DNA from: Planctomycetaceae bacterium
Lineage (GTDB): Bacteria > Planctomycetota > Planctomycetia > Pirellulales > Pirellulaceae
Assembly: GCA_007121535.1 (NCBI GenBank)
Contig: SKKK01000200.1
Span: 1-55,048 of the forward strand
Length of the DNA: 55,048 bases
Direction of reading: 5' to 3'
Below, in pieces: positions 28,860-47,337 of this stretch. The first letter of the stretch is position 1; each line of letters begins with the position of its first letter. The position numbers and the translations under genes were made by a program. The notes under the pieces were generated by a model. The model was given only the letters and a program-made list of their open reading frames with translations, made no database searches and was not told where the DNA came from.

Positions 28860-30260
28860 TTAGCCTTGCTCTCTCGCGCCGGGTTTCAGGCCGTGGTGGC
28901 GCAACAGGGCGTGAAAATTGGGGCGCTGCATGCCTACGCTTTCGGCTGCGTGAGTCACATTCTGGGCGCAACGGCCTAGTGCGGCGGTCAGGAAACGACG
29001 TTCCAGGCTTTCCACCACTTGCCGTTTGAAGGTCTTGAATTCGTCCCAGGTCCGCGGCAGGTCTGTGCTGGACAACGTGCGTTTGGATTCGCGGATCTCC
29101 AGCGGTAGGTGTTCCAGTCCGATCTGGCTTCCGCCGTACAGCACCGCCAATCGCTGGACGATGTTCCGCAGCTCGCGGACGTTTCCGGGCCAAGGATAGA
29201 TCTCCATCTGCTGCAAAGCCCGGGGAGTAAAAAACGTCGATTGCAATCCCATTTGACGCGAGAATTCGTCCAGGAAGGCCGTCGCCAGCAACCGGATATC
29301 ACCGGTCCGCTCCCGTAACGGGGGCAACGTCACAGGAACCACGTTCAGGCGGTAGTACAGGTCGGCGCGGAACTGGCCCACTTTGACCATCTGGCCGAGA
29401 TCCCGGTTGGTCGTGGCGATCAAGCGGATATCCACCTCGCGCTCGGCCGTGTCGCCCACTCGCCGGATCAATCGGGTTTCCAGTACACGCAGCAACTTAC
29501 CTTGGGTCTCCATGCTCAGGTTGGACACTTCGTCCAGCAACAGCGTCCCGTGATCGGCCGCTTCGAACAAGCCCTTCTTGGTGGCGATCGCCCCGGAAAA
29601 CGAACCCTTGACGTGCCCGAACAGCTCGCTCTCCAGCAAGGTCGGGGCGAGCGCCGTACAGTCGCAGCCCAACAGAGGCGCATCGCAACGGTGGCTGAGC
29701 CGATGGATCGCGCGGACGGCCAACTCTTTTCCGGTGCCGCTTTCGCCGGTCACCAGGACCGTGGCTTCGGCCAAGGCGATCCGCTCGATCAGTTCGAATA
29801 CATCGAGCATGGCAGAGCAGCGCGCGAGCATGCCTTCGAAGCGGGGCCATTTCGACCGTCCATGAGCGTCCGATTCCCGTGGTACCGCCGTGCCGGCCGG
29901 TGTCACACGGTCTACTGCCGCCCGCAGTTGCTCAGCCGAACAGGGCGCGACCAGATAGTCGGCGGCTCCTTCCCTGATCGCCCGGATGGCAGTCTCAACC
30001 GTCTGATTGCGGCTGACCAGTATCACGCTCGTCAAGTTGTCCCTGGCCTTCAGTTGACGGACGAGGGCGACAGGTTCCGGTTCCGGGGACAAGAGCACGG
30101 CGATGACCAGATCGAAGTCATCCGACGTGTTTGAAGGGACCTCGCCAACGCTCAGCTCTTGCCACTGAACGGTGTGACCGTCGGCATCCAGCATGTCTTG
30201 GTATCGTCCGGCGGTATCGGGTTGCTGGACAAGCAGCAAAATTCTTCGTGGGATACTCAC
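28860..30260 (-). CDS. Sigma54-dependent response regulator (NtrC/AtoC type), last gene of hydrogenase cluster
   Basis: 466 residues: receiver domain (about 5-118), AAA+ sigma54-interaction domain (Walker A GESGTGKE 172-179, Walker B GTLLLDEV 238-245) and a C-terminal Fis-like HTH. The sigma54-contact loop is the functional variant GSFSGA (219-224). The receiver lacks the usual phospho-acceptor Asp (Val55 at that place) and the late Lys (VAPCSA), so signalling may not use phosphorylation. Its start overlaps the stop of the kinase gene by ATGA. It is the obvious candidate activator of the sigma54 promoter at 47005-47020. Confidence 0.9.
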   Translation of the reverse strand: MSIPRRILLLVQQPDTAGRYQDMLDADGHTVQWQELSVGEVPSNTSDDFDLVIAVLLSPEPEPVALVRQLKARDNLTSVILVSRNQTVETAIRAIREGAADYLVAPCSAEQLRAAVDRVTPAGTAVPRESDAHGRSKWPRFEGMLARCSAMLDVFELIERIALAEATVLVTGESGTGKELAVRAIHRLSHRCDAPLLGCDCTALAPTLLESELFGHVKGSFSGAIATKKGLFEAADHGTLLLDEVSNLSMETQGKLLRVLETRLIRRVGDTAEREVDIRLIATTNRDLGQMVKVGQFRADLYYRLNVVPVTLPPLRERTGDIRLLATAFLDEFSRQMGLQSTFFTPRALQQMEIYPWPGNVRELRNIVQRLAVLYGGSQIGLEHLPLEIRESKRTLSSTDLPRTWDEFKTFKRQVVESLERRFLTAALGRCAQNVTHAAESVGMQRPNFHALLRHHGLKPGAREQG

Positions 30261-32197
30261 GTTCCGGCTCCAACGCTTCTGTCGCCACCCGTCGCGCCAT
30301 CCGCCACGGCGGGCAGAGCGATCGTAAAGGTCGTTCCTTTCCCGGGGTCGCTGTCCACTTTCAGGGTACCGCCATGCTGATGCACAATGCCGTAACTGAC
30401 ACTCAGCCCCAGCCCGGTCCCTTTTCCCACCGGTTTGGTCGTGAAAAAGGGCTCGAAAATCCGATCCAAGTCCTTCCGTTCAATGCCACAGCCGGTATCC
30501 GTAATGTCGATGACGACGCGATCGTCGGCGGTCGAGGAACTGACCAGCAACGTGCCTCCGTCGGGCATCGCTTCACAGGCGTTCAGAGTCAAGTTCAACA
30601 GGACCTGTTGCAGTTGATTGCGGTCCGCGTTGATCAACGGCAAATCGTCGCCCAGGTCTTCGACCATGTAAATGTGCTGAAAAGCTTCGCGTTTGCCCAG
30701 CAACCGGAGTGTCTGGACGATCAACTGGTTGATGTCCAGCGGCTTTTGGACGAACGGCGTCTCGCGGGCGAAATCCAGCAGACCACGCACGATTTCGCGG
30801 ACCCGTTTGGTCTCGCGGATGATCAATTCCAGATCTTCGCGGTCCTGGTCGTCCATGTTTTCCTTGTCGCGCATCATGTCGGCAAAGGCCAATACGCCCG
30901 TCAAGGGATTGTTGATTTCGTGTGCGACGCCTGCTGCCAGACGGCCCACCGAAGCCAATTGCTCGCTGCGCCCGACCTCCATTTGGGTTGCCAGCCGCAA
31001 CAGTTCCTCACGTTCGGCCACCGCCTGAGCCATGCTATCGACCGCCCGGCACAGCGTTCCCATTTCGCCGGGCGGACGGATGCCCACCCGGGCGGACAGG
31101 TCCCCGCCAATGATTTTTTGGGCCATCACCACGACGTGGCGGATCGGCGCCAAAACCAGGGCGTTGGCCATGAACAACAGGATCAGGCTGGCTGCGGTCG
31201 CCCCCAGGATCAACGTCATGAACACCGCGCTGATCACGTTCAATTGGTGGGTGAACGGAGCTTGAAGCAGCCCGACGTACAACACGCCGATCACCCGGCC
31301 CGTCGGGTTGCGGATCGGTTCGTACGCCGTGATGTACCAGTCGTTCACGACAAAGGCCGGGTTCACCCAGGTACCGCCCTGGTCCAAGACCGTTTTGCTG
31401 ACGGCAGCGCTTAAACGCGTGCCAACCGCGCGGCTTCCGTCGTCCATGGTGACGTTCGTGGCGATCCGCAAATCCCCCTGGAAGATGGTCACCGTGCCGA
31501 TGTCTCGCCCCCGGTAAACCTCGTGCGGGAACACTTCCTGTTTGATCTCGTCGACGATACCGTAGCGCCGGTTGAGCAAGGTGCCGCCGTACAAAATGGC
31601 AGACAGTTGTCCGGCAGCATCGTACAGCGGGACCGCCGAAGCGACAACCATACCCTCGCGGCGCACCGTCTCCCGGGTGGGTCGCGCCGCGGATGTGGGG
31701 ACGAGTTCAAAGCGAGCCAGATCGGCCAGCTCCGGCCGCTCGGCTGCCAGCCGATCGGGCGAAAAAAGGACCGTCCCACCGGCGGCTGCGCCGCTGTCGA
31801 GCACACGGTGGATCAGGGGATCGTCTGCCAGGCTCTCGCCGCGGATCCTGCTGTTGGCCCGGAAAAGCACCCGCCCCGCCGAATCCAGGAAAATGACAAA
31901 GTCCAATCCGCCCCCCCGGCGGATGTCGTCCAACAGCGCGCCAAATTGCTCCGTATCGTGCTGGAGTATCGATTCGCTCAGACGTGAGTCGCGAGCCGAA
32001 CCGCTCAAAAATGCTTCGATCAAATCGATGCGTTTGCGGTACGCTGCACGCGCCGAATTCAAGTTGCGTTGGACCCGCGTCTGCACCTCGGCCAACCATA
32101 CCGAACCCAGATACCGCAGGGCGATGATCGACAGCAGCGAGTTCGTAACCAGAATCACGGCGACCGCAATCGTGGTCATCTTGAAGCGGATACTCAT
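30257..32197 (-). CDS. Membrane sensor histidine kinase with periplasmic Cache domain
   Basis: 646 residues. TM1 (about 7-30), a large periplasmic Cache-type sensor (about 31-285), TM2, HAMP, then HisKA with phospho-acceptor His426 in VAHEINNPLTG and a HATPase_c domain (N box LNLTLNACEAM, G boxes DTGCGIE and GKGTGLGLS). GGGGAGGA precedes the start at 32197; the longer frame upstream is not homologous. It pairs with the overlapping sigma54 regulator. It probably senses a small-molecule or redox-related signal and is separated from the hydrogenase large-subunit gene by a 163-base gap. Confidence 0.92.
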   Translation of the reverse strand: MSIRFKMTTIAVAVILVTNSLLSIIALRYLGSVWLAEVQTRVQRNLNSARAAYRKRIDLIEAFLSGSARDSRLSESILQHDTEQFGALLDDIRRGGGLDFVIFLDSAGRVLFRANSRIRGESLADDPLIHRVLDSGAAAGGTVLFSPDRLAAERPELADLARFELVPTSAARPTRETVRREGMVVASAVPLYDAAGQLSAILYGGTLLNRRYGIVDEIKQEVFPHEVYRGRDIGTVTIFQGDLRIATNVTMDDGSRAVGTRLSAAVSKTVLDQGGTWVNPAFVVNDWYITAYEPIRNPTGRVIGVLYVGLLQAPFTHQLNVISAVFMTLILGATAASLILLFMANALVLAPIRHVVVMAQKIIGGDLSARVGIRPPGEMGTLCRAVDSMAQAVAEREELLRLATQMEVGRSEQLASVGRLAAGVAHEINNPLTGVLAFADMMRDKENMDDQDREDLELIIRETKRVREIVRGLLDFARETPFVQKPLDINQLIVQTLRLLGKREAFQHIYMVEDLGDDLPLINADRNQLQQVLLNLTLNACEAMPDGGTLLVSSSTADDRVVIDITDTGCGIERKDLDRIFEPFFTTKPVGKGTGLGLSVSYGIVHQHGGTLKVDSDPGKGTTFTIALPAVADGATGGDRSVGAGT

Positions 32198-32360
32198 CCC
32201 TGTCCTCCCCCTGCCCACCAAGAGCAAAGTCCGGCACCATACCTCCAGCATACCGCGCGATGCGAAAGTTGCCAGCACGTGGATTGTCACGCTGCGCAAA
32301 AACAATCTCAACCACCGGGCGACTTGCGCGAATTCGCCGAAGACCTGAAAGTGATCCGGA

Positions 32361-33842
32361 TTAGCCGCGGGAAACGCGGTGCAGGATGTTTCCTTGTTTG
32401 TCATGGACGGTGACTTCCAGGGGCATCTGTCCGGGCAGGCTGTGGGTGGCGCAGCCGAAGCACGGGTCGTAGGCCCGGAAAGCCATCTCGACCATGTTCA
32501 GCAGGCCCTCGGTGGCTACCTGCCCTTTGTGGATCAGGTTTTGTGCCGCTTGTTTGACCGACATCGAGATCGGGGCGTTGTTATTGGTGGTGCCGACGAT
32601 CAAGTTGACACCGGTCAACAGACCGCGCTCGTCGGTGGTGTAATGGTGGGTCAGCGTCCCGCGCGGCGCTTCGACGCTTCCCACGCCTTCGGTCGGAGTT
32701 TGCGTCGGCAGCACGCGGTACTCGCGGCTGGTGATCTCCGGGTCCGCAGCCAACTCCAGCCAGCGTTCGGCGGCATACAGCAACTCGATCAGCCGGGCCC
32801 AGTGTGTGGCCAGTGTGTGATGGACCGGTTTGCCCCCCAAGACCTCGTAGAACTTGCCGTACTCGGCCTGTGCCAACGGCGTTGCCATCCCATCGGCGGC
32901 GTTCAAACGCGACAGAGGCGTGGCCTTGTACACGCCCGAATCCACTCCGTCGACCAAGCCTTTCCAGCCGATCTGCTTGAGGTACGGGAACTTGAGGTAA
33001 CTCCAGGGTTCAACCCGCTCGGCGATATATTGGCCGTAGTTCCGGGCGGGGTACTTGGCATGCTGCTTGCCGTCCGGGCCGACCACGCGGATATTGCCAT
33101 CGTAGAAGTTCACGCAGTTGTCCGCGTCGACGGTTCCCATGTTGTAGGTGCGATGGATGTACGTATCGCCCAGGATCAGACGGAGATAGGCGCTATTCTT
33201 CAGGACCACTTTGTCGAACAATTGCAGCGAGAACTTGGCGAATTCCAGCGCATCGCGGCCCGCCTGCTCGATCTCCTGCCGTTGCTGTCCGGTGATTCCC
33301 CGGCTGACGCCGCCAGGCAATCCCCAGTTGGGATGCACGCGTCGTCCGCCGATCATCTGCAGCAGTTCGTGCCCGACGCGGCGCATTTTGAGAACCTGGC
33401 CTGCGATGTCCATTCCCACTTTGGCGACCACCCCCAGAAGATTTCGTTCCGCAACGGGCGCGGTCGGCCCGACGACGAAGTCCGGAGCGGCTAGCGCGTA
33501 GAAATGCGTCGTGTGGTCGGTCACGTAGAAGATGCTGTAGAACAATTCGCGCAGCTTCTTGGCCGCTGGCGGCGGTTCGACATGGAATAGTGCGTCCAAC
33601 GCTTTAGTCGCCGCCATGTGGTGGGCCTCCGGGCACACCCCGCAGATCCGGTTGGTCAAGTTCGGCATGTCCTCGGCGGGCCGCCCCAAGCAGAACCGCT
33701 CGAAGCCGCGCAGTTCCGGGATCTGCAGATAGACGTTGGCCACGTCGCCTTCGTCGGTCAAGAAGATATCGATCTTGCCGTGGCCTTCCAGCCGAGTGAC
33801 CGGATCGATCGAGATCCGCCGGTGTTGTGTCGCGGTTGTCAT
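32361..33842 (-). CDS. [NiFe] hydrogenase large subunit, MvhA-like (group 3)
   Basis: 493 residues, soluble catalytic subunit for H2 oxidation/production. The Ni ligands are present: RICGVCPEAHH (C67, C70) and DPCFGCATH (C461, C464). A 26-residue tail follows His467, the usual position for removal by a maturation protease; no intact protease gene is in the window, only a degenerate protease-like domain in the first gene of the cluster. The context (MvhD, HdrABC) favours group 3c/3d rather than membrane-bound enzymes. Start overlaps the small-subunit stop by ATGA. Confidence 0.94.
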   Translation of the reverse strand: MTTATQHRRISIDPVTRLEGHGKIDIFLTDEGDVANVYLQIPELRGFERFCLGRPAEDMPNLTNRICGVCPEAHHMAATKALDALFHVEPPPAAKKLRELFYSIFYVTDHTTHFYALAAPDFVVGPTAPVAERNLLGVVAKVGMDIAGQVLKMRRVGHELLQMIGGRRVHPNWGLPGGVSRGITGQQRQEIEQAGRDALEFAKFSLQLFDKVVLKNSAYLRLILGDTYIHRTYNMGTVDADNCVNFYDGNIRVVGPDGKQHAKYPARNYGQYIAERVEPWSYLKFPYLKQIGWKGLVDGVDSGVYKATPLSRLNAADGMATPLAQAEYGKFYEVLGGKPVHHTLATHWARLIELLYAAERWLELAADPEITSREYRVLPTQTPTEGVGSVEAPRGTLTHHYTTDERGLLTGVNLIVGTTNNNAPISMSVKQAAQNLIHKGQVATEGLLNMVEMAFRAYDPCFGCATHSLPGQMPLEVTVHDKQGNILHRVSRG

Positions 33843-34882
33843 CTGTCAGTTTCTCCTGGATGCTGCTCGGTTGCCGTCTCCCGTTTTTCCAGCTTGCGGC
33901 GCCGCAGCGCGCTGGCTGCCAGGCTGAAGCGGTAAAAGCTGCCGACCGGATCGGGAATTCCCTGGTGGATGATCCGGTCGACTTCTTCGGGATCGTTCGA
34001 GTCGATGACGGACGCTACGGCGCTCATCAGTCGGGCCCCGCAGTCTCTCACGCCGTTATTGGGTCCGTAGCAGCCGATGCACGGCGAGTTCACCTCGGGG
34101 CAGCGGGCGCCGCAGCCGGCGCGGGTGCTGATCCCGCAGCACAGGATGCCCTGTTCCAGCAGGCAGGTCTCCTCGTCCGGCCAGACCTGCCACGTGCGTT
34201 TGAACTGTTTGATGCGCTTCTCGGAGCGTTTACGTTTGCATTCGTCGCAGACGCTGGTGTCGGCGCCGATCACCGAACCGGGTTCGGGCAGTTTGTTTTC
34301 CAGGATCGCCGTCACCGCGTCCCAGATCCGTTCCGCTTCGGGCGGGCATCCGGGCAGGAAATAGTCTACCGGCACCATCTGTTCCAGCGTATGCACGGAA
34401 TCGTAAAACACGGGCAGATGCAGCGTACCTTCGGGGACGGGCGTCTCGCGTTGCGGACGCTGGCCCTGTGGGTTTTCCGTCGAGGGGGTGTCGTGATAGA
34501 CGGTCTGGAAGACTTCCTCCCGGTTGGACAGATTGGCCAGGCCCGGGATGCAGCCTTCGCAGGCGCACGACCCGAAGGCCACCAGGACCTTGGATTTCCT
34601 GCGCAGCAGGTGCGCCATGTGTTCCTGCTCGCTGGTGCGGATGCTGCCGTTGAACAGGCACACGTCGATCGCGCCGTCTTCCATCGCTTCCACGTCGCGG
34701 ACCTTGGCGTCGATCACCACCGGCCAGAAGACGATGTCGAACGCGGCGGCCACGTCCAGAATTTTCTCGTTCAGGGCCAGGACGGCGATTTCGCAGCCGC
34801 CGCAGGAGGCCGCCCAGTACATGGCCAGTTTTCCCTTGCCATTGGCGGCCGGGGCCGCTCCGCCCGCATTGGATGGATTCAT
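33839..34882 (-). CDS. [NiFe] hydrogenase small subunit, MvhG/HoxY-like
   Basis: 347 residues. The start at 34882 with GGAGG upstream is preferred; the longer frame is an antisense-like extension over mvhD. C27 and C30 in SCGGCE, C-rich GSCACEGCIPG and later PGCPPE give the proximal Fe-S cluster ligands, and the C-terminal half (CDECKRKR, ILCCGISTRAGCGARCP, PCIGCYGP) carries further clusters. There is no Tat signal, so it is cytoplasmic. It passes electrons from the large subunit to MvhD and overlaps both neighbours by 4 bases. Confidence 0.93.
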   Translation of the reverse strand: MNPSNAGGAAPAANGKGKLAMYWAASCGGCEIAVLALNEKILDVAAAFDIVFWPVVIDAKVRDVEAMEDGAIDVCLFNGSIRTSEQEHMAHLLRRKSKVLVAFGSCACEGCIPGLANLSNREEVFQTVYHDTPSTENPQGQRPQRETPVPEGTLHLPVFYDSVHTLEQMVPVDYFLPGCPPEAERIWDAVTAILENKLPEPGSVIGADTSVCDECKRKRSEKRIKQFKRTWQVWPDEETCLLEQGILCCGISTRAGCGARCPEVNSPCIGCYGPNNGVRDCGARLMSAVASVIDSNDPEEVDRIIHQGIPDPVGSFYRFSLAASALRRRKLEKRETATEQHPGETDR

Positions 34883-35376
34883 CGCACCACCTCCATCGCC
34901 CGTTCGTGTTCCAGCACAATCGCCTGCAACGCTTCGCTTCGCTCGCCGTTCTCTTCCCAATTCGCCGACCAGTTCAACGGGCCCAACTGCCGCACCTTGT
35001 CGGTCAGATCGGCCACGGTCTCCGCGAACAGATCGCCCTCGGAAGCCGAGATCCACTCCAGCCGCACCCGGTCGCGTTCGATGCCAAAGGTATCCAGCAG
35101 TTCGAGCAGCATGCGATACCGCCGCATCGCTTTGTAGTTGCCTTCCTTGTAATGACAATCGCCCGGGTGGCAACCGGCGATCAGCACGCCGTCGGCGCCT
35201 TGGGCCAAGGCATGCAGGACGAACGTCGGATCGACTCGCCCCGAACACATCACGCGCAACGGCGTCAGGTTGGGCGGGTACTCTTTGCGGCTGGTGCCGG
35301 CCAGATCGGCGCCGGTGTACGAACACCAGCGGCAGAGAAACCCCACCAGCTTCGGTTCGAATTGCGTATCGGCCAT
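34879..35376 (-). CDS. MvhD-like hydrogenase delta subunit
   Basis: 165 residues, small [2Fe-2S] protein linking hydrogenase to HdrA. Family marks are FLCRWCSYTGADLAG, MCSGRVDP and GCHPGDCHYKEGN, which bring the conserved cysteines. The start at 35376 has AAGGAG upstream. It lies between the gene for the HdrA C-terminal half and the hydrogenase small-subunit gene, exactly the physical order of electron flow in Hdr-Mvh complexes. Confidence 0.93.
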   Translation of the reverse strand: MADTQFEPKLVGFLCRWCSYTGADLAGTSRKEYPPNLTPLRVMCSGRVDPTFVLHALAQGADGVLIAGCHPGDCHYKEGNYKAMRRYRMLLELLDTFGIERDRVRLEWISASEGDLFAETVADLTDKVRQLGPLNWSANWEENGERSEALQAIVLEHERAMEVVR

Positions 35377-35390
35377 GTCGTTCCTCTCCT

Positions 35391-37157
35391 TCACGTCAAA
35401 ATGCCGTCGAGTTCGGCGTAAATCTGCACGTCTTCAAAGCCTTTTTGCCGGGCAGCTCCGGAGGGGCACGTGACCACGCACGTGCCGCAACCCTTGCACA
35501 GTTCTTCGATGATCAGCGAGATGTCGTGTTGTTCGTCGAATACGATCGCCGAGTACGGGCAACTGGTGATGCAAGTCTTGCACCGGCTGCACCGCTCGGG
35601 GACGATTTCCGACGTGATCGGTTCCAGGACATACTTTCCCCGGTCTGCCAGGGACAGGGCGCACGCGGCGGCGGCTGCGCCCTGGGCCACCGAATCGGGA
35701 ATGTCTTTCGGGCCTTGGCAGGCACCGGCCAAGTAGATGCCTTCGGTGGCGGCTTCGACCGGGGCCAGCTTGGGATGCTTTTCCAGGAAGAAATCGCCTT
35801 GCGAGCAACTGAGCGAGAACAACCGGGCCACGTGATCCGAATCGGCGCCGGGCTGCAGCGCCGCCGACAGGATGACCATGTCGACTGGCAGCCGCCGGGT
35901 CAGGCCCAGCAGGGTGTCTTCGCACACGACCACCAACTTGCCCTCTTCCTCCTCGGTCTCGGCCACGTCAGTCACCTCGGCCACCTTGCCCCGGATGAAC
36001 TGGACCCCTTCATGCAGCAGCCGCTTGTAGAATTCCTCATAGCCCTTGCCGGGCGTCCTCATGTCGATGTAACAGTTGTAGACCTCCGCGCCGGTCTTCT
36101 CCTTGACCAGATGCGCGAACTTCAGCGAGTACATGCAGCAGACGCGCGAGCAGTACTCGTGGTAGTGTTCATCCCGGCTGCCAACGCAGTGGATGATCGC
36201 CACGGACTCAGGCGGCTGGCCCTCGGAGGTCAGGATCTCGCCGTTGGTCGGGCCGCTGGCGTGGCTGATCCGCTCGAAGTCCAGCGCGCTCATCACGTTC
36301 TTCAGCCGCCCGTACCCGTAGCGGGCGATCTGCCGGCCATCGAATACCTCGAAGCCGGTCGCCACGACGATCGAGCCGACTTCGATCTCCCGGAAGGTGT
36401 CCTGCTGGTCGAAGTCGATGGCTCCTGCGTCACAAAACGCCTGGCACGCGCCGCAAGCCCCGGTCTGCAGCCGGATGCAATGTTCCGCGTCGATCACCGG
36501 CTTGTGCGGTACGGCCTGCGCGAACGGGATATAGACCGCAGCCCGCTGAGATAACCCCTCGTCGAACTCCGAAGGGATCGGCCGAGGCGTGTGCGAAGTC
36601 AACCGGTCGAACTCGACCGACCGCGAGTGGGCCGGACAGACGACCTGGCAAGCCCCGCAGGCGATGCAGATGGGCGAATGGGCGTCGTACGGCGGGCTGA
36701 CTTTCTTCTCCACGCCCCGGTGCAGGAAATTGATCGCCCCGACGCCCATCCGCTCGTTGCAAACCCGCACACACATCCCGCACAGGAAGCAATCCGAATC
36801 CTGTTGGGGAAACCGCGACCGCGTGATCCCAAAATGCCCGGCCAAGTCCCGGATCGCCCGGACCTCGGGGCAGCGGGCCAGCAGCAGTTCCAGCATGATC
36901 TTGCGAGTCCTCACCACCCGGTCGGTGTCCGTCCGGACCGACATGCCGTCGGCGGCGGGGTAGACGCACGAGGCCTCGATGCTCGAACCACGCGGCCACT
37001 GCAACTCGACCAGGCAGACGCGGCACGCGCCGTAGGGCGTCAAGGACCTGTGATGGCAGAGCGTGGGAATCCAGATCCCCAACTTTTCCGCCGCCTGCAG
37101 AACCGTCGTGCCGTGTTCCACGTCGATCTTCTTGCCGTCAATCGTCAGACTCACCAT
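35391..37157 (-). CDS. NuoG-type ferredoxin module fused to C-terminal half of HdrA
   Basis: 588 residues. Residues 1-75 are a [2Fe-2S] domain (C34, C45, C48, C64); 123-133 and 164-174 are two 4Fe-4S motifs, as in the N-terminus of NuoG/HndD. From about 222 the sequence is HdrA from its inserted ferredoxin onward: VATGFE, HCVGSRDEHYHEYCSRVCC, and two final 4Fe-4S motifs (C523-C533, C554-C564). The HdrA N-terminal GxGxxG FAD motif is absent; it is in the protein encoded at 42559-43893. There is no [FeFe] H-cluster domain. It probably forms the reconstituted HdrA core with that partner and accepts electrons from MvhD. Confidence 0.9.
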   Translation of the reverse strand: MVSLTIDGKKIDVEHGTTVLQAAEKLGIWIPTLCHHRSLTPYGACRVCLVELQWPRGSSIEASCVYPAADGMSVRTDTDRVVRTRKIMLELLLARCPEVRAIRDLAGHFGITRSRFPQQDSDCFLCGMCVRVCNERMGVGAINFLHRGVEKKVSPPYDAHSPICIACGACQVVCPAHSRSVEFDRLTSHTPRPIPSEFDEGLSQRAAVYIPFAQAVPHKPVIDAEHCIRLQTGACGACQAFCDAGAIDFDQQDTFREIEVGSIVVATGFEVFDGRQIARYGYGRLKNVMSALDFERISHASGPTNGEILTSEGQPPESVAIIHCVGSRDEHYHEYCSRVCCMYSLKFAHLVKEKTGAEVYNCYIDMRTPGKGYEEFYKRLLHEGVQFIRGKVAEVTDVAETEEEEGKLVVVCEDTLLGLTRRLPVDMVILSAALQPGADSDHVARLFSLSCSQGDFFLEKHPKLAPVEAATEGIYLAGACQGPKDIPDSVAQGAAAAACALSLADRGKYVLEPITSEIVPERCSRCKTCITSCPYSAIVFDEQHDISLIIEELCKGCGTCVVTCPSGAARQKGFEDVQIYAELDGILT

Positions 37158-38482: not shown

Positions 38483-38823
38483 CCCATCCTCCCAACTCCG
38501 AGTCCACAGAGCCTGCCGGCCAATTCAAACGCCGGCAAACGGCTGACTAACACCGGGATGTTTTCCGCTTCCGCTTTCCGGACGGTATCCTCTTCCGGCT
38601 CTCGTCCGTTGACCAGCACGATTGCGGCCAAATCCTTCATGCTTGCCACCGCCACCGTGTTGACGTGCTTTTGCAATGTGATCCACAAGTCTCCCGGCCG
38701 GCCGTTGGCGATCACGTCGCTCAGCAGGTCACTGGCGTATCCGCCGGTCACTTCGCGCTCGAGCCGTGCCCGGCCGGCTCTTACTTGCAGCTCGAGTGCG
38801 TCCACCAAGTCAGCTAATGTCAT
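38479..38823 (-). CDS. DRTGG-domain protein (second copy in operon)
   Basis: 114 residues, cytoplasmic. It matches DRTGG-type domains, with VTGGYASDLLSDVIANG at about 25-41 and the later IPVLVSRLPAFELAGRL. Such proteins accompany hydrogenase and phosphotransacetylase systems and may sense a nucleotide or metabolite. It overlaps the CBS-ATPase gene upstream by 14 bases and the PHP gene downstream by 4. A paralogue lies at 39770-40126. Confidence 0.82.
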   Translation of the reverse strand: MTLADLVDALELQVRAGRARLEREVTGGYASDLLSDVIANGRPGDLWITLQKHVNTVAVASMKDLAAIVLVNGREPEEDTVRKAEAENIPVLVSRLPAFELAGRLCGLGVGRMG

Positions 38824-39748
38824 GGAAGTTCTCGTTCACAAAAAAGGATGCCGTCAACCGCGTGCCCTTGCCGAGCGCCGAATCGATCTCGAACCGGTCG
38901 CAACTCTTCCGGATATTGGGCAGGCCCATGCCTGCGCCGAACCCGAGTTCCCGGACCCAATCCGGTGCCGTCGAGTATCCCGGCTCCAGGGCGCAGGCGA
39001 TGTCCGCGATGCCGGGCCCGGAATCCGCGGCCTCCAGCAAGAGCGTCTCCGGTTGGATCTTGGCCCGCAGGGTTCCTCCCGAAGTAAACACGACCAGATT
39101 CATCTCCGCCTCGAAACTGGCAATCGCGACCCGCCGCACGAGGTTGGGACCGACGCCCAGCCGGTGCAAGGTCTGCTTGAGCCGGCTGGAACTCGCTCCG
39201 GCCTGGCCGAAGTCCTGGCCTTTCACGTCGTACTGCAAGACCAGCGCCGTGCGATCCGCCTGGACATCCTCGAAAAACACGTGGGCGGTCCGGTGCCGCC
39301 GGATCTGCTCCTGCTGGTAATCGATCTCCAGTTTCTTCAACAATCCTTCGATCACGTCTCCTTTGGTCAGGATGCCGAGCAATTTCGTGGGGTCGTTGCG
39401 ATCGACCACTGGCAGGCGCCCCAGGCCCGACTTGTCGAATTTACCGACGGCCAGCACCAAAGGGTCGTCCTCCGATACCTTTTCCAGGTGCTGCGTCATC
39501 CGCTGGCGGATCGGGCCGTCTTCCGCCCGGTCGGCCAACCACTTGATGAAATCTTCCAGACTGATCAGTCCCACCAGCCGCTGGCCGTCGAGCACGGGAA
39601 GTCCCGAGATGCGGTTTTGCCGCAGGATGCCGCGCAGACGGCTCATGGGCACGTCGGGCCGCACGGTGATGACCTGCCGGGTCATCACCTCGCCGACCTT
39701 CATCTCGTACACCATCTCTTGGGTTTTCGTAATCCTGGTACTCGGCAC
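38810..39748 (-). CDS. CBS-pair protein with anti-sigma-like HATPase
   Basis: 312 residues. Two CBS motifs (about 16-75 and 85-140) typical of adenine-nucleotide sensing are followed by a HATPase_c domain of the RsbW/anti-sigma kind (EAEMNLVVF, DSGPGIADI, GFGAGMGLPNIR). In bifurcating hydrogenase clusters these modules occur as separate genes. It may tune complex activity or expression to energy charge. GTG start at 39748 with GGAGG 11 bases upstream; Met16 is an alternative. Confidence 0.85.
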   Translation of the reverse strand: MPSTRITKTQEMVYEMKVGEVMTRQVITVRPDVPMSRLRGILRQNRISGLPVLDGQRLVGLISLEDFIKWLADRAEDGPIRQRMTQHLEKVSEDDPLVLAVGKFDKSGLGRLPVVDRNDPTKLLGILTKGDVIEGLLKKLEIDYQQEQIRRHRTAHVFFEDVQADRTALVLQYDVKGQDFGQAGASSSRLKQTLHRLGVGPNLVRRVAIASFEAEMNLVVFTSGGTLRAKIQPETLLLEAADSGPGIADIACALEPGYSTAPDWVRELGFGAGMGLPNIRKSCDRFEIDSALGKGTRLTASFFVNENFHDIS

Positions 39749-39769
39749 TGGCTGCAGTCCCTCCTGTTT

Positions 39770-40126
39770 TCAACGGCCGTTTTCCGAACAACCCCTCAAA
39801 CCTCGACCGTACAACCGTCCGCAGGCCTCGAACATCGGCAAACCGGTCATCAACAACGGCAACCCATCCGCGGCCGCCAAGCGGACCGTTTCTTCCGGCG
39901 GCCGCTTGCCCCGGACGAAACAAATGGCCGCCAACTCGACCATTTCGCACGTCCGGATCACATGCACGTTCGTCAATCCCGTCAGCAGTACCGCACCGGA
40001 CTTGCTGAAGGCCAGCACGTCGCTCATCAGATCCGCACCGCACGCGGTCCGGATCTCGATGTCGCACAGATTGCCGCCGGCGACCACTTCCGCTTCCAGG
40101 ATGTCGCAGACTTCTTCCAACGTCAT
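39770..40126 (-). CDS. DRTGG-domain protein (first copy in operon)
   Basis: 118 residues, paralogue of the protein at 38479-38823 (CGADLMSDVLAFSKSGAVLL, then LPLLMTGLPMFEACGRLYG). It lies 48 bases after the HndC-like gene. The two copies bracket the CBS-ATPase gene, so a heteromeric signalling unit is possible. Confidence 0.82.
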   Translation of the reverse strand: MTLEEVCDILEAEVVAGGNLCDIEIRTACGADLMSDVLAFSKSGAVLLTGLTNVHVIRTCEMVELAAICFVRGKRPPEETVRLAAADGLPLLMTGLPMFEACGRLYGRGLRGCSENGR

Positions 40127-42558: not shown

Positions 42559-43893
42559 TCATCTGGTCGGATGCTCTTGGTTTTGATCGTTTGTATTCCG
42601 GACTTTTGGTTCTGCCATCTTGCCGACCAATCGGGCCGCCTTGGAAGTCGTCAGTTTGCCGTGGAACGTGTCCCCGACCGTCACCACGGGCGCCAATCCG
42701 CAACAACCCACACATCGCACGGTTTCGAGGGTGAACCGCATATCGGACGTGGTCTCCCCGACCGCGATGCCCAGTTCCCGCTGGAGCGTTTCGAGAATCC
42801 GCGGGGCGCCCTGGACGTGGCAGGCCGTTCCGGTGCAGACGTTCAGCACGTGTTTGCCGCGCGGCTTCAAGCTGAACGACCGGTAGAACGTGGCGATCCG
42901 CACGATATGTTCCAAGGGCACCTGCTTGACCTCGGCGACGTACCGGAGGACTTCGGGCGGCAGCCAGTTCAAGATTTCGGAGATGTCCTGCAGGATGGGC
43001 ACAATGGCTTCGGCGGCTCCTTCGTGTCGGGCCGCGACGCGGTCGACCAGCGATCGTTTCGTCGGATAGAGTTCCACGGCGGGTGACGCCGGAGGGTCGA
43101 GATACGCCCGGTTCTTGACCAGGCAGCTTTCGACGCATTGCCCGCACCCGGTGCATTTGTCCGCGTCGATGTACCGGGCTTTTTGGCGGACCTTGACCTT
43201 GAAATTGCCGACGAATCCGGAGACTTCCTCGACCTCGGAATAGCTCAACAATTCGATGTTCGGGTGCTGCCCGACGTTGACCATTTTCGGAGTCAGGATG
43301 CAGGCCGCGCAATCGAGGGTGGGAAACGTCTTGTCGAACTTGGCCATGTGGCCGCCGATTGACGGCTGTTTTTCGACCAGGTAGACTTTCTTGCCCGAGT
43401 CGGCGATCCGCAACGCGGCCTCGATCCCGGCGATCCCGCCGCCCACGACCAGCGTCTCGGGACGCACCGGGACTTCGCGCTCCTGCAGCGGCAGGTGGTG
43501 ACGCACGCGCTGGACGGCGGCGGTGACCAGGCGTTTGGCCTTGCGCGTGGCCTGCTGGCGGTCCGTATGCACCCAAGAACAATGCTCGCGGATATTGGCC
43601 ATCTGGAACAGGAAGGGATTCAAACCTGCTTCGTCGCACGCCCTGCGGAAGGTGGTCTCGTGCATCAGCGGCGAACACGATGCCACCACGACCCGCGTCA
43701 GACGCTGCTGTTCGATGTCCCGCCGGATGATCTCCTGGCCCGGGTCGGAACACATGTACTTGTATTCCTTGGCCACCACGACCCCGGGCAATTCCGCGGC
43801 GTGAGCCACCACGGCTCCGACATCCACCGTGTGGGAGATGTTCGTCCCGCAGTGGCAAACGTAGACGCCAATACGTTCGCTCGGCGCAATCAT
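42559..43893 (-). CDS. N-terminal half of HdrA fused to NuoE
   Basis: 444 residues. Residues 1-265 are the N-terminal half of HdrA: VYVCHCGTN, FAD motif GGGIAGIEAA (151-160), TLDCAACILTPKM, and a 4Fe-4S motif C247-C257. HdrA homology then stops and residues 295-430 are a complete NuoE/HndA domain with [2Fe-2S] ligands C353, C358, C394, C398. The rest of HdrA is encoded at 35391-37157. The start at 43893 overlaps the HdrB stop (ATGA). This places the bifurcating flavin of HdrA on the same chain as the ferredoxin that feeds NuoF. The sequence shows no stop or frameshift between modules. Confidence 0.92.
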   Translation of the reverse strand: MIAPSERIGVYVCHCGTNISHTVDVGAVVAHAAELPGVVVAKEYKYMCSDPGQEIIRRDIEQQRLTRVVVASCSPLMHETTFRRACDEAGLNPFLFQMANIREHCSWVHTDRQQATRKAKRLVTAAVQRVRHHLPLQEREVPVRPETLVVGGGIAGIEAALRIADSGKKVYLVEKQPSIGGHMAKFDKTFPTLDCAACILTPKMVNVGQHPNIELLSYSEVEEVSGFVGNFKVKVRQKARYIDADKCTGCGQCVESCLVKNRAYLDPPASPAVELYPTKRSLVDRVAARHEGAAEAIVPILQDISEILNWLPPEVLRYVAEVKQVPLEHIVRIATFYRSFSLKPRGKHVLNVCTGTACHVQGAPRILETLQRELGIAVGETTSDMRFTLETVRCVGCCGLAPVVTVGDTFHGKLTTSKAARLVGKMAEPKVRNTNDQNQEHPTR

Positions 43894-44786
43894 GAGGTCA
43901 CCTTTTCTCCGAGGAGGGGTTCCAGCGAAGTGAGATTGTCGCTCAACGCCAATTCGACGGGCGGCATCCCGAAAGCAATCCCCATCAATTGGGTGAAGTA
44001 CAACACGGGGATCGCGCAACGGGCGCCAACCGCCCGGCCCACCTTGTCCTGATACGCTTCCAGATTGATCTGGCACAACGGACACGCCGTAGCTACGCAA
44101 CCGGCGCCCCGTTGCCCGGCCACCTTCAGGATCTTGCCCGTCAGGACCTGACCCGTTTCGGGATGCGTGGTCATCGCCATCCCTCCGCAGCACTTGGCGG
44201 CCAGCGGAAAGGGAACGACGGCGGCGCCCAGCCATTCGACCAGCCGTTCCATCAACCGCGGATACTCGGGATGATCCAGATCGTCAAACGGCCGACTCAA
44301 CTGGCATCCGCAATAGCACGCCACCTTCCAGCCCGACATGTTCCGCTGGACCCGGGAACGGATGCTTGCTTCCCCGACGTCGTTCACCAGGATTTCCAGG
44401 AAGTGACGTACCCGGACGCTGCCCGAGTAGTCCATGCCACCCGCCTGAAGCGCCTGGCGGATATCGTCCCGCAGATGCGCGTCCTCGGCCATGTACTTGT
44501 TCGTCTTGCGCAGCACGACGTAACAGGCGTTGCAGACCGTGGCCAGTTCGCGCCCGTTCTGCTCGGCCAGCGCCAGGTTCCGGGCGGACAGCACGAAGGC
44601 CCGCTTCTCGCGGACGGGCAGGTAGGCCGTCGCCCCGCAACAATTCCAATCGTCCAGTTCGACCAACTCGATTTCCAACTCGCGCGCCACGCTTCGCGTC
44701 GAGATGTCATAGGCACGATTGGTCGCCATCAGCGAACAGCCAGGGTAGTAACCATAGCGGCAGGCGTGGGAAGCGGTGGTGATCAT
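43890..44786 (-). CDS. HdrB-like heterodisulfide reductase subunit B
   Basis: 298 residues with two intact CCG domains, the ligands of the non-cubane 4Fe-4S clusters that cleave disulfides: YYPGCSL/NCCGA/CNACY and CYCGCQ/KCCGGMA/CPLCQ. The start at 44786 overlaps the HdrC stop by ATGA. Bacteria without coenzyme M use related HdrB for unknown disulfides or other acceptors, so the substrate is open. Confidence 0.93.
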   Translation of the reverse strand: MITTASHACRYGYYPGCSLMATNRAYDISTRSVARELEIELVELDDWNCCGATAYLPVREKRAFVLSARNLALAEQNGRELATVCNACYVVLRKTNKYMAEDAHLRDDIRQALQAGGMDYSGSVRVRHFLEILVNDVGEASIRSRVQRNMSGWKVACYCGCQLSRPFDDLDHPEYPRLMERLVEWLGAAVVPFPLAAKCCGGMAMTTHPETGQVLTGKILKVAGQRGAGCVATACPLCQINLEAYQDKVGRAVGARCAIPVLYFTQLMGIAFGMPPVELALSDNLTSLEPLLGEKVTS

Positions 44787-45349
44787 CTTCGTCCGTTCTC
44801 CTCGATCGCGGCGAGCATCTTGTGCAGGCTGTCCAGACCCTTGATCTTGCGCGGAAAGATCTCCAAACGGCCGCGGACAAAGAGCCTGATCGCCAGCGGG
44901 ATCTGAGCCAAGGCATGCAAGGGATTGGTGCGCAGGAAATACTTCCGCAACAGCGTCGTTTCCGCGTTGCGGCCATAGCGGTCGACGGTTTCCGCAAAGG
45001 CGTGCGCCATGGTCTCGCCCGTGGCGTCCTTGGCCAAGCCCTTGTCGACCTCCAGTCGCTTCAATTCGTACATGACGTCGGTCAGCGGAATCCCCGCCGG
45101 ACAACGGACCGTGCAGGAATAACACGAAACGCAAAGCCAGACAGTCTGGGCGTTCAGGACCCGGTCCAGCATGCCGGCCCGCAGCGAAGCGATGATTTCC
45201 CGAGGCCCGAATTCCATCGCCGCGCTGGACGGGCACGAGGCGGAACAGGTGCCGCACTGCAGGCACTGCTTCAGCTTCTCGCCGTGCGGCAAAGCGTACA
45301 CGTCGTCGAGAAACTCGTCGCACAACTCTTTGGCCAACGCCGTCGGCAT
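44783..45349 (-). CDS. HdrC-like heterodisulfide reductase subunit C
   Basis: 188 residues. Two ferredoxin motifs, CLQCGTCSASCPSS and CVSCYSCTVRCPAG, carry electrons between HdrA and HdrB. A helical C-terminal region follows. The start at 45349 (MPTALAKEL) follows AAGGGG and lies 20 bases after the preceding stop; a longer frame to 45391 would overlap that gene. Confidence 0.92.
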   Translation of the reverse strand: MPTALAKELCDEFLDDVYALPHGEKLKQCLQCGTCSASCPSSAAMEFGPREIIASLRAGMLDRVLNAQTVWLCVSCYSCTVRCPAGIPLTDVMYELKRLEVDKGLAKDATGETMAHAFAETVDRYGRNAETTLLRKYFLRTNPLHALAQIPLAIRLFVRGRLEIFPRKIKGLDSLHKMLAAIEENGRR

Positions 45350-45369
45350 CGTCAATCCCCTTGTATCTT

Positions 45370-46950
45370 CTAGTACACCGCCATCTCCCACACGATGTGA
45401 TCCGCCAACGCCTCGGTGGTCCGCGAGTCCAGACTGGCCAGCCCGCCCATCGCATCGGGCTGGACCGTCAGCACCGTCACTTTGTTCATCGCTTCGCCCG
45501 GATCCACGCCGAAATCGGGTTTCGTGTCCCGCGTCAGGCTGCCCGGTAACCCACCGGTGTCCCGAGCCACCAACACCATCAACCGGTCATACCCCGCGGC
45601 CGTCTTCAAAACATTCGCCGGACTCAAGTTCGCCACGCCGGCGGTGACCAGCAGCGGCAGCGAGCGGGCCAGCAGCTTCTGGCCGATCATCGCTCCTAGC
45701 CCCTCGTTGCGCCACAACAGCCCCGGAGCGGCCAGCAGATGCACCCGGTGCCCGTACCGGTTGGTGATCGATACCCCACTGATCGGCTCCGAAGGACCAC
45801 TCGGCCGTCCGGCAGCCGCCCGTTCTTGACTCCGGAAGGCGGCGGACAGAATGTCAGGCAACTCGCCGTCCGTGAACGGCTCGACCGCATAGTACAGGAT
45901 GCGGTGCTTGCGGTAGGCCGTTTCCCGCGGACCGTCAGCCGCCGCCAAAACCACCAAGCGCAGGGACGGTCCCAACTGGTTTACCAGCCCGACCCATTCG
46001 GGACCGGCGTCGACCAGGGACGGATCGTCCAGCAACACCACACTCGACTCGGACTTCTCCAGAGCTGCTTTCAAGGCGTCACGATCGGCGACCAACTGGA
46101 CCTCGCACCCCAGGGCGGCCAACTTCTCGGTCTGCTGCTGCGCTGAGGCCGGATCGGTGTTCGCCAAGAGAACACCCCGCGGTACACAGTGCTCCGCCTC
46201 GCGCTCGTACTCGGTCGTGCAAACGTGAGCCAGCCAGCCCTCGCCGCAGGGATCGGTCACCAGCCGCTCGGGATGCTTGGCCAAGTACTCGTTGACCCCC
46301 ATCACCACCCCCGACACCGGCGCGGCTACCATGACCATCGGCCTGCCCGGCACCGCGACCCCCGCCAGCGGCAAGCCCTGGTAGACCACTTCGCCGATTC
46401 GCGGCAACCGTAATTCGCTTGGCACCGTGCCCCGCAACCCGGGCAGCACCGCGCCGACGCATGCCGAACCATCGATTTCCATCCGACACCACGAGTCGCC
46501 GCAAAACAGCAGTGGCGACTGAGCTTCCCACGACGCCGCAGCGCCCGCGTCCTCCGGTTCTCCGTTGCCCTCCCGAAGATGCTGGGTTGCCAGCACGCGT
46601 TGCACCGCCGAGGTGATCTCCTCGGAAGTGAACGGCTTGGTCACATAGTCGCTGGCCCCCAACCGCATCGCAGCCGCCGCGTTGGGAATACTGGGATAAC
46701 CCGTGATGATCAGCACCGGTACCTCCATCTTGGTCTGCCGGAGCTGCTCCAGGAACTGTATCCCATCCATGTTGGGCATCTTGATGTCCAACAGGATCAT
46801 CTCGTAATCCTTCTCGGCGGCCATCCGCAACCCTTGCCTGGCATCGAGACACGTGTCCACCGAGAACCCCTGCCGGCTAAAGACCCTCCGGCACGCTTGG
46901 CAGATGACCTCCTCGTCATCCACCACCAGAAGTGCGTGACTATCTGCCAT
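45370..46950 (-). CDS. Response regulator with GcvH-like and hydrogenase-maturation-protease-like domains
   Basis: 526 residues; start at 46950 with GGGAGGA upstream. Residues 1-125 are a normal receiver (LLDIKMP with phospho-acceptor Asp, late Lys in TKPF). About 155-245 resembles glycine-cleavage H protein (APVSGVVMGVNEYL, DPCGEGWL) but the lipoyl-lysine hairpin is missing. About 255-385 looks like a second, degenerate receiver. About 401-526 aligns by eye with M52 hydrogenase maturation proteases of the HybD type (LLAAPGLLWRNEGLG, Glu416 at the first metal ligand), but the second ligand Asp is Val461. It is the first gene after the sigma54 promoter and has no DNA-binding domain. Confidence 0.75.
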   Translation of the reverse strand: MADSHALLVVDDEEVICQACRRVFSRQGFSVDTCLDARQGLRMAAEKDYEMILLDIKMPNMDGIQFLEQLRQTKMEVPVLIITGYPSIPNAAAAMRLGASDYVTKPFTSEEITSAVQRVLATQHLREGNGEPEDAGAAASWEAQSPLLFCGDSWCRMEIDGSACVGAVLPGLRGTVPSELRLPRIGEVVYQGLPLAGVAVPGRPMVMVAAPVSGVVMGVNEYLAKHPERLVTDPCGEGWLAHVCTTEYEREAEHCVPRGVLLANTDPASAQQQTEKLAALGCEVQLVADRDALKAALEKSESSVVLLDDPSLVDAGPEWVGLVNQLGPSLRLVVLAAADGPRETAYRKHRILYYAVEPFTDGELPDILSAAFRSQERAAAGRPSGPSEPISGVSITNRYGHRVHLLAAPGLLWRNEGLGAMIGQKLLARSLPLLVTAGVANLSPANVLKTAAGYDRLMVLVARDTGGLPGSLTRDTKPDFGVDPGEAMNKVTVLTVQPDAMGGLASLDSRTTEALADHIVWEMAVY

Positions 46951-47337
46951 CGCTGATTCTTCCTCCCGATGAAAAAGGTTTGGTGCCAAAGCGTGACAAC
47001 ACTTAGCAAACTTCGTGCCAGAGCCAGAAATAGAGCCTTGACGGACGAAATGCGGATAGCGACCGATCCGAAATGGCCCAGATCCCGAACGTCCCCAGCA
47101 ATATGTGTGTAAACGAAGGCAGTCCACACCCGAAATCACTGTATAAAGATCTGTCTGCATGTATTGGTATTCATACTTGCACAACCACCATGGCCGAACA
47201 GATGGGGTAGGCGTAGGTGTGGGGAGCAATAGGCAAGATAGGATGCGTTGGCAAAGGCAGTGGGTCCCGCGGGCTGAGCGGGACCGGGCAGGCCCACGCT
47301 CGGCGCTCGTGGGCCACCGGGCAGTGCTCTTCCGGCT
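46951..47337. other. Upstream regulatory region of the hydrogenase/Hdr cluster
   Basis: 387 bases holding the sigma54 promoter and ~200 bases where activator sites would lie (none identified with confidence). Near the far end are two hairpins: GTCCCGC/GCGGGAC at 47264-47284 and ggcccacg/cgtgggcc at 47291-47315, which may terminate or punctuate the upstream small membrane-protein transcript. Confidence 0.55.
47005..47020 (-). promoter_or_regulatory. Sigma54 (-24/-12) promoter of the hydrogenase/Hdr cluster
   Basis: The minus strand reads TGGCACGAAGTTTGCT, matching the consensus TGGCACG-N4-TTGCW, with correct GG-to-GC spacing. Transcription would begin about 12 bases on, near 46993, leaving a ~43-base leader before the ATG at 46950. 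The cluster encodes its own sigma54 activator. Confidence 0.85.

Follow-up and report, generated by a model that had tools for sequence, protein, structure and literature searches.

A Planctomycete Response Regulator Family with a Lysine-Less H-Protein-Like Domain and a Predicted M52-Derived Pseudo-Protease Domain, Often Encoded in Hdr Gene Clusters

Introduction

The described proteins and systems that come closest to P0001, the response regulator analyzed here, are the M52 hydrogenase maturation proteases, the H-proteins, and the NtrC/AtoC two-component systems. The C-terminus of P0001 has the fold and the structural motifs of M52 proteases (HybD, HycI; Pfam ID PF01750, TIGR00072). Unlike these enzymes, it lacks the Asp ligand in 19 of 19 family members and the Glu ligand in 4 of 19, has the His loop deleted, and is fused to receivers. 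Similarly, P0001 shares the H-protein fold and the GCV_H profile with GcvH and LbpA, whereas its own domain has no lipoyl lysine motif and is located inside a response regulator. In the abstract of PMC6067878, the lipoylated GcvH-like protein LbpA is described as an essential partner in the Hdr-like sulfur-oxidizing system, so that cooperation between an H-protein fold and subunits of the Hdr type has a precedent.

The P0001 locus resembles σ54-dependent NtrC/AtoC systems in having a histidine kinase, an AAA+ activator, and a σ54-type promoter element but differs from them in that, in the clade that includes our sequence, the activator has a dead receiver or none, and a receiver occurs on another protein encoded in the cluster. 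Among the genes drawn at the hdr loci of Desulfobacterium autotrophicum, a figure legend of PMC2702500 names a histidine kinase together with a response regulator and a CheY-like regulator, which going by that legend share the hdr-locus setting of P0001. Finally, the receiver-GcvH protein of locus L063 (genome G162) has a receiver followed by an H-protein-like domain without the lysine, as P0001 does, but no second receiver and no M52-like domain, and inspection by eye revealed no Hdr gene among its listed neighbors. A literature search of open-licence papers returned none on an M52 pseudo-protease or on the P0001 domain architecture.

Domain Architecture and Phyletic Distribution of P0001

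P0001 is a 526-aa protein of the response regulator family, encoded on the minus strand (45373..46950, with the stop codon at 45370-45372) of the window, that is, the whole 55,048-nucleotide stretch of a Planctomycetaceae contig (GenBank accession number SKKK01000200.1) that was analyzed. Its domains follow the order receiver 1, H-protein-like domain, pseudo-receiver (receiver 2), and M52-like domain. Pfam scanning of the whole protein detects the receiver and the H-protein domain and nothing past residue 252, and the NCBIfam matches listed for the whole protein (25 of 110) all fall within receiver 1. No DNA-binding output domain was detected by Pfam in the whole protein or by NCBIfam in residues 143 to 526.

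All relatives of P0001 found here belong, by record title, to Planctomycetota. A pattern scan of 84,980 species yielded 51 candidates, of which 19 were confirmed; the scan relied on two short patterns and may have missed distant relatives. The 19-member family used throughout consists of these 19 loci minus the fragments L069 and L078 (the latter, from the same genus, has the look of a gapped or chimeric sequence), to which the window and a second copy from its genome, located on contig C122, were added. It includes two close pairs (L074/L075 and L077/L085), and the duplicate copies L003, L004, L005, L035, L036, and L038 of the same genes were left out of the count. All named relatives come from metagenome-assembled genomes, so missing genes are weak evidence throughout. 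The M52-like domain was seen in the P0001 family alone, both in the 84,980-species pattern scan and in a profile search of 392 genomes of the phylum, 2 of which gave matches. The second copy in the same genome (genome G000, contig C122, locus L032, positions 15682-17301, plus strand) is 45% identical to P0001 and stands first in an HdrCBA cluster, on a contig where the search detected no NiFe large subunit.

Receiver 1 (residues 8-117; 46600..46929, minus strand; Pfam Response_reg, E = 8e-34) retains D11, D12, D55, T83, and K105 in 19 of 19 aligned members, which, by residues, gives it the DD, D, T/S, and K set of a phosphorylatable receiver. Receiver 2 (residues about 257-380; 45811..46182, minus strand) was delineated by hhalign comparison with receiver 1 and by Response_reg matches in the relatives: the window copy matches this model at an E value of only 0.18, and 13 of the 17 members scanned do so at E ≤1, the best at 3.9e-6. 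Profile comparison of receiver 2 (17 of the 19 members) with receiver 1 (14 of the 19) gave a probability of 94-95% and scores of 48-50, versus a maximum of 19.5 in 200 column shuffles. The position of the receiver Lys is occupied by E357, with Glu found there in 15 of 19 members. Judging from these alignments, receiver 2 is a diverged receiver.

The H-protein (GcvH)-like domain (residues about 145-252; 46195..46518, minus strand) scores over the Pfam cutoff for GCV_H (residues 179-252, E = 7.9e-7), and this model matches all 19 members at E ≤0.1. The AlphaFold2 (AF2) model of residues 143-256 has a pLDDT of 92.9, and its best 22 Foldseek matches in the PDB are all H-proteins or GcvH-like proteins, with TM scores of 0.65-0.88; the closest is 3ab9 (E = 3.1e-9, TM 0.86). 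The ESVK motif, which we take to be the lipoyl-lysine motif of H-proteins, is gone in 19 of 19 members, and the Lys is present in all six stand-alone H-protein frames of the same alignment.

The C-terminal domain (residues about 400-526; 45373..45753, minus strand) is predicted, from its modeled fold and from profile comparisons, to be a pseudo-protease derived from the M52 (HybD/HycI) family. The AF2 model of residues 389-526, built from the 19-row alignment, has a pLDDT of 92 and a pTM of 0.87. Its Foldseek matches in the PDB at ranks 1 to 8 are all M52 hydrogenase maturation proteases, headed by 5zby (E = 1.1e-4, probability 1.0) and followed by seven others with E values of 0.0036-0.027, and the first non-M52 match is an aminopeptidase (E = 0.048). 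The TM scores to the M52 structures are modest (0.43-0.48, with rmsd values of 6.6-8.4 in Foldseek). A VIA-align search with the same model was not M52 specific: amidases scored Z values of 7.4-6.4 and M52 proteases 6.6-5.0, with amidase_3, peptidyl-tRNA hydrolase, and others appearing beside M52, as a common fold would give. Sequence profiles were decisive here. In hhalign, the C-terminal profile matched a profile of planctomycete M52 proteases from 27 of 30 loci (L106, L110, and L111 excluded) at 96%, with scores of 56-58 (48.8 and 94% when query and template were swapped), versus a maximum of 19.9 in 200 column shuffles and 14.6 for the reversed profile. Against the same M52 profile, receiver 1 scored 14.6 and the H-protein domain 12.3; receiver 2, at 21.5 (5.8%), was slightly over the shuffles.

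When the C-terminal segment was searched alone against NCBIfam, the sole match up to E = 1 was TIGR00072, hydrogenase maturation protease, at E = 0.0019, with a score (18.2 bits) that misses the curated threshold of 47.45. The Pfam M52 model (PF01750) matched none of 5 C-terminal segments and none of the 19 whole members, and a search of PDB chains with a 5-row C-terminal profile returned no M52 protein, the best row being a designed cytochrome (E = 0.0012). The profile built from planctomycete M52 proteases gave E values of 8e-5 for the window copy and a weaker 0.034 for the one on C122. The VIA-align Z values therefore play no part in our assignment of the domain to M52, which is based on TIGR00072, the profile comparison, and the order of the Foldseek matches.

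We take E416 and position 461 to be M52 metal-ligand sites, the ligand roles in these enzymes being those of Glu/Asp, Asp, and His. In the alignment with M52 proteases, E416 pairs with the first ligand and V461 with the second, an Asp, and the loop with the His is deleted. Across the 19 members, the column of the reference Asp17 contains Glu in 15, Gly in 2, His in 1, and Arg in 1; that of the reference Asp63 (position 461) contains Leu in 10, Met in 4, Val in 2, Lys in 2, and Thr in 1, with Asp in none; and the His loop is present in none, so the three-metal-ligand set is nowhere complete. The structural M52 positions G419, L426, A/V462, P469, G470, and Q497 are kept. Column conservation in the pseudo-protease follows that in real M52 proteases weakly (Spearman coefficient of 0.23 over 116 aligned pairs, P = 0.011, permutation P = 0.004).

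The original prediction, which had been made from the DNA sequence alone, described P0001 as a receiver, an H-protein-like domain without its lipoyl lysine, a receiver-like domain, and a C-terminus akin to HybD/HycI. This four-part anatomy agrees with the combined Pfam, AF2, Foldseek, and hhalign results; the 143-256 model has the H-protein fold, and the loss of the ESVK lysine extends to the entire family. A C-terminal fold unrelated to M52, the outcome that would have counted against that proposal, is not what the structure search returned, as the eight best matches were M52 proteases; the likeness is echoed by the 96% hhalign probability and by the TIGR00072 match below its cutoff. The reading of Val461 in place of the Asp ligand and of Glu416 as a retained ligand is correct for the window copy, but Glu416 is not invariant in the family (15 of 19).

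Gene Neighborhood

The P0001 gene is the first of an Hdr/Nuo/Vhu cluster in which it is followed, in order, by genes for HdrC, HdrB, an HdrA-N/NuoE fusion, a 2Fe-2S protein, NuoF, accessory proteins, a HoxU-like/HdrA-rest fusion, MvhD, VhuG, VhuA, the histidine kinase, and the NtrC-type activator. The features below are all on the minus strand. The next gene downstream encodes an HdrC-like subunit (44783..45391), which NCBIfam CoB_CoM_SS_C matches with 85.8 bits (cutoff, 160); the HdrB-like subunit (43890..44789) has two CCG stretches in Pfam and a CoB_CoM_SS_B match below the NCBIfam cutoff. In Pfam and NCBIfam scans, 42559..43893 encodes the N-terminal portion of HdrA joined to a NuoE-like domain, and 35391..37157 encodes a HoxU-like ferredoxin domain joined to the rest of HdrA; MvhD (Pfam FlpD, E = 4.1e-52) is encoded at 34879..35394.

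The histidine kinase (30257..32404; cache, HAMP, HisKA, and HATPase domains by domain scan and alignment) has an intact His box, HEINNP, as do the kinases at all 12 loci compared. The adjoining NtrC-type σ54 activator (28860..30260) has a dead receiver, with a broken acidic pair, no phosphoacceptor Asp, and no Lys. Activators of this type are found at 13 of the 19 loci, namely, in the window and at 12 others, where they are 51-72% identical to that of the window; the fragment L078 was included in the activator alignment and left out of this 13-locus count. The receiver is dead or deleted at 7 of the 13 loci, being degenerate in the window, L067, L072, L073, and L084 and deleted in L068 and L071, and is intact at the other six. 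Response_reg scores are 30.8 bits for the window activator, 30-34 for the four degenerate receivers scanned, and 90 and 93 for two intact ones, with no match in L068. On the P0001 tree, the seven loci with dead or deleted receivers form one side of a branch (100/99), and the two deletions are not grouped together. With the dead receivers in a single clade, they represent one evolutionary event rather than repeated co-loss. Judging from their residues, the activators of this clade could not be phosphorylated in the normal manner; the same cluster has an intact receiver, that of P0001.

Elsewhere in the family, the kinase of the activator is present at 12 of the 19 loci and HdrA or HdrC at 10 of the 19, often as the very next genes after the P0001 relative. 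The NiFe large subunit (VhuA) was seen at 2 of the 19 loci, the window and L067; one may have escaped notice at L072 and L073, which break off within HdrA, and L068 and L075 stop shortly past the gene. At seven loci (L070, L071, L074, L077, L083, L084, and L085), no Hdr gene was recognized downstream, and two (L032 and L080) have no kinase or activator next door. These neighbor counts come from BLAST searches with the proteins of the window and may miss diverged Hdr genes. The family thus accompanies the kinase, the σ54 activator, and Hdr modules more than it does the hydrogenase locally, the association with hydrogenase being seen at the genome level.

The P0001 gene is preceded by a −24/−12 element, TGGCACGAAGTTTGCT (47005..47020, minus strand), 54 bp before the start codon, which we take to be a σ54 promoter element; RpoN is encoded in the genome. 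The exact element occurs once in the 55-kb window, where 12 sites are found at ≤1 mismatch versus 7.4 expected. In the 350 bp upstream of family genes, it is exact in 6 of 19 cases and has one mismatch in 11 of 19 (17 of 19 together); L071 and L081 have an element with two mismatches, a match level attained in 6% and 9%, respectively, of trials with shuffled sequence. Of the 10 exact copies of the element in the 410,003 bases of the loci, 7 precede a family gene by at most 200 bp, counting that of L078. The distance to the start codon ranges from 39 to 241 bp across the family, the far ones being a loose link. By these counts, the P0001 gene has a σ54-type promoter element that is conserved in the family and was newly seen in this analysis.

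Hydrogenase Maturation Proteases

The NiFe large subunit of the cluster (VhuA-like; 32361..33842, minus strand; Pfam and NCBIfam) carries a presumably cleavable 26-residue tail after DPCFGCATH. There was no other significant M52 match among the frames of at least 60 codons in the window (the next had E = 1.5), which agrees with the original prediction of a large subunit with a tail and no intact protease in the window. A search of the remainder of the genome, which had been proposed along with that prediction, located intact M52 genes on contigs C601 and C680. The gene on C601 (950-1432) lies directly after the end of a VhuA with a near-identical tail (DPCFGCATHSLPGQMPLEV...), and its ligands were checked in the alignment; the one on C680 (1319-1819) adjoins another NiFe large subunit, and its ligands were assessed by eye. 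Because M52 can be supplied in trans, its absence from the window needs no special explanation, and a missing protease was rejected as the explanation of P0001.

A second Vhu operon (HdrCBA, VhuG, and VhuA) with an M52 gene is apparently spread over contigs C442 (L167) and C601 (L034). The large-subunit pieces on these contigs are 76% and 75% identical, respectively, to the VhuA of the window and 98% identical to each other over a 153-residue overlap. The pseudo-protease regulator was seen on neither contig.

Among the 18 genomes with the family, M52 was found in 15 and a NiFe large subunit in 15; no such subunit was found in the other 3, whose assemblies are incomplete. M52 counts are based on the Pfam model, which missed the C680 gene, and are lower bounds. 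M52 is present in 14 of 17 other family genomes (the genome of the window, that of L078, and L080, which comes from the same genome as L069, were set aside) versus 26 of 93 relatives (98 minus five that bear the family, only part of the 93 having been searched for it). Fisher's exact test gives P = 3.6e-5, uncorrected for kinship or assembly gaps.

Possible Roles of P0001

In the reading that we tentatively prefer, and regard as plausible though by no means assured, P0001 would be the phosphate acceptor of the kinase and an adaptor that links the status of the Hdr complex and hydrogenase to the activator, acting neither as a DNA-binding protein nor as an enzyme. The kinase of the cluster would phosphorylate receiver 1, and phosphorylated P0001 would relay the signal to the σ54 activator with the dead receiver; the input portion normally built into an NtrC regulator would thus now reside on a protein of its own. 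The two domains that have lost their enzyme residues might serve as docking modules that hold P0001 on HdrCBA or hydrogenase components, which would tie expression of the operon to the state of the complex. The retention of an intact receiver 1 throughout the family, along with the loss of the lipoyl motif and of the M52 ligands, speaks for such an adaptor. So do the conserved σ54 element, the intact His box of the kinases (12 of 12), the dead or deleted activator receivers (7 of 13 loci), and the presence of HdrA or HdrC at 10 of 19 loci. It is at odds with the six loci where the activator receiver is intact and P0001 is not needed as an acceptor, with the single origin of the dead receivers, with the 7 of 19 loci that have no recognized Hdr gene, with the two (L032 and L080) that lack an adjacent kinase and activator, and with the roughly 13 kb that separate P0001 from the kinase and activator of the window, which are located at the opposite end of the cluster. 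In six relatives, P0001 adjoins an additional activator, and four of these have an additional kinase as well, which makes the cognate kinase uncertain; the genome also encodes many receivers, and other kinases could partner P0001.

Phosphorylated P0001 might instead control the complex directly, docking on HdrCBA as a lysine-less counterpart of LbpA on sHdr and switching electron flow with no role in transcription. The frequent proximity of HdrA or HdrC (10 of 19 loci) and the lack of a DNA-binding domain by Pfam (whole protein) and NCBIfam (last three segments) fit this proposal, as does the essential role of LbpA with another Hdr-like complex in the abstract of PMC6067878. Still, we find it somewhat doubtful: the σ54 activator is the commonest neighbor (13 of 19), 7 of 19 loci have no recognized Hdr gene nearby, and the dead activator receivers are left unexplained. 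The original prediction had placed the protein in hydrogenase assembly, as a chaperone or checkpoint in which the M52-like domain would bind the unprocessed tail of the large subunit without cutting it and hold or report the immature hydrogenase until nickel is in. Part of this stands, in that the M52 origin indicated by Foldseek, hhalign, and TIGR00072 makes binding without cleavage plausible; the tailed large subunit in a window without an intact protease and the enrichment of M52 in family genomes (with kinship uncorrected) point the same way. The hydrogenase-specific part is weak, given that a NiFe large subunit was seen at only 2 of 19 loci, that 3 of the 18 genomes with the family have none detected in their incomplete assemblies, that the first ligand is lost in 4 of 19 members, that intact M52 proteases are available in trans (C601 and C680), and that the second Vhu operon includes an M52 gene but lacks a regulator of this type. 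As a full account of P0001, the checkpoint is unlikely; as one input of the signaling adaptor, it is possible.

A combination of a split σ54 regulator with an assembly sensor, in which the dead domains would grip unprocessed hydrogenase or free Hdr subunits and transcription would be gated by both the kinase and maturation, strikes us as distinctly unlikely. Another reading, in which both the M52-like domain and the H-protein-like domain were recruited as inert scaffolds for dimerization or stability and keep no memory of their old partners, would account for the loss of active residues from both and for the similar VIA-align scores of many phosphorylase/hydrolase-like folds. It is quite improbable in view of the conservation of the pseudo-protease, which tracks that of real M52 proteases, albeit weakly (Spearman coefficient of 0.23, P = 0.011), and of the restriction of the M52-like domain to the P0001 family, in genomes that mostly hold M52 and a NiFe hydrogenase. 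If the adaptor reading is correct, a hydrogenase maturation protease would have been turned into a noncatalytic signaling module, and the activator of a two-component system would have handed its receiver function to another protein. In either case, the locus makes it testable how cells keep the expression of electron-bifurcating complexes, which are costly, in step with their assembly.

Additional Observations

Several features of the surrounding genes deserve mention. HdrA is split in the window, with the first ~258 residues on the NuoE-like fusion, the remainder on the HoxU-like fusion, and six genes between them; the same HdrA-N fusion, with 94% identity, is encoded in L069, a metagenome-assembled genome of the same genus. 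The accessory genes between NuoF and the HoxU-HdrA fusion (37175-40126, minus strand) encode, according to Pfam, ATPase domains combined with CBS in one case and with PHP in another, and two short genes in this segment resemble those for DRTGG proteins by eye. In L067 (10150-19059), the regulator is found with an HdrC/B-like protein, a 754-aa Fe-S/CCG protein, HdrA, and VhuG/VhuA, as well as proteins that look EtfB/EtfA-like by eye. Finally, L050 (1396-2868, minus strand) encodes a GcvH-like domain without ESVK (GCV_H, E = 1.5e-19) fused to a HoxU-like Fer2/4Fe-4S protein, which is another link of H-protein folds to redox complexes.
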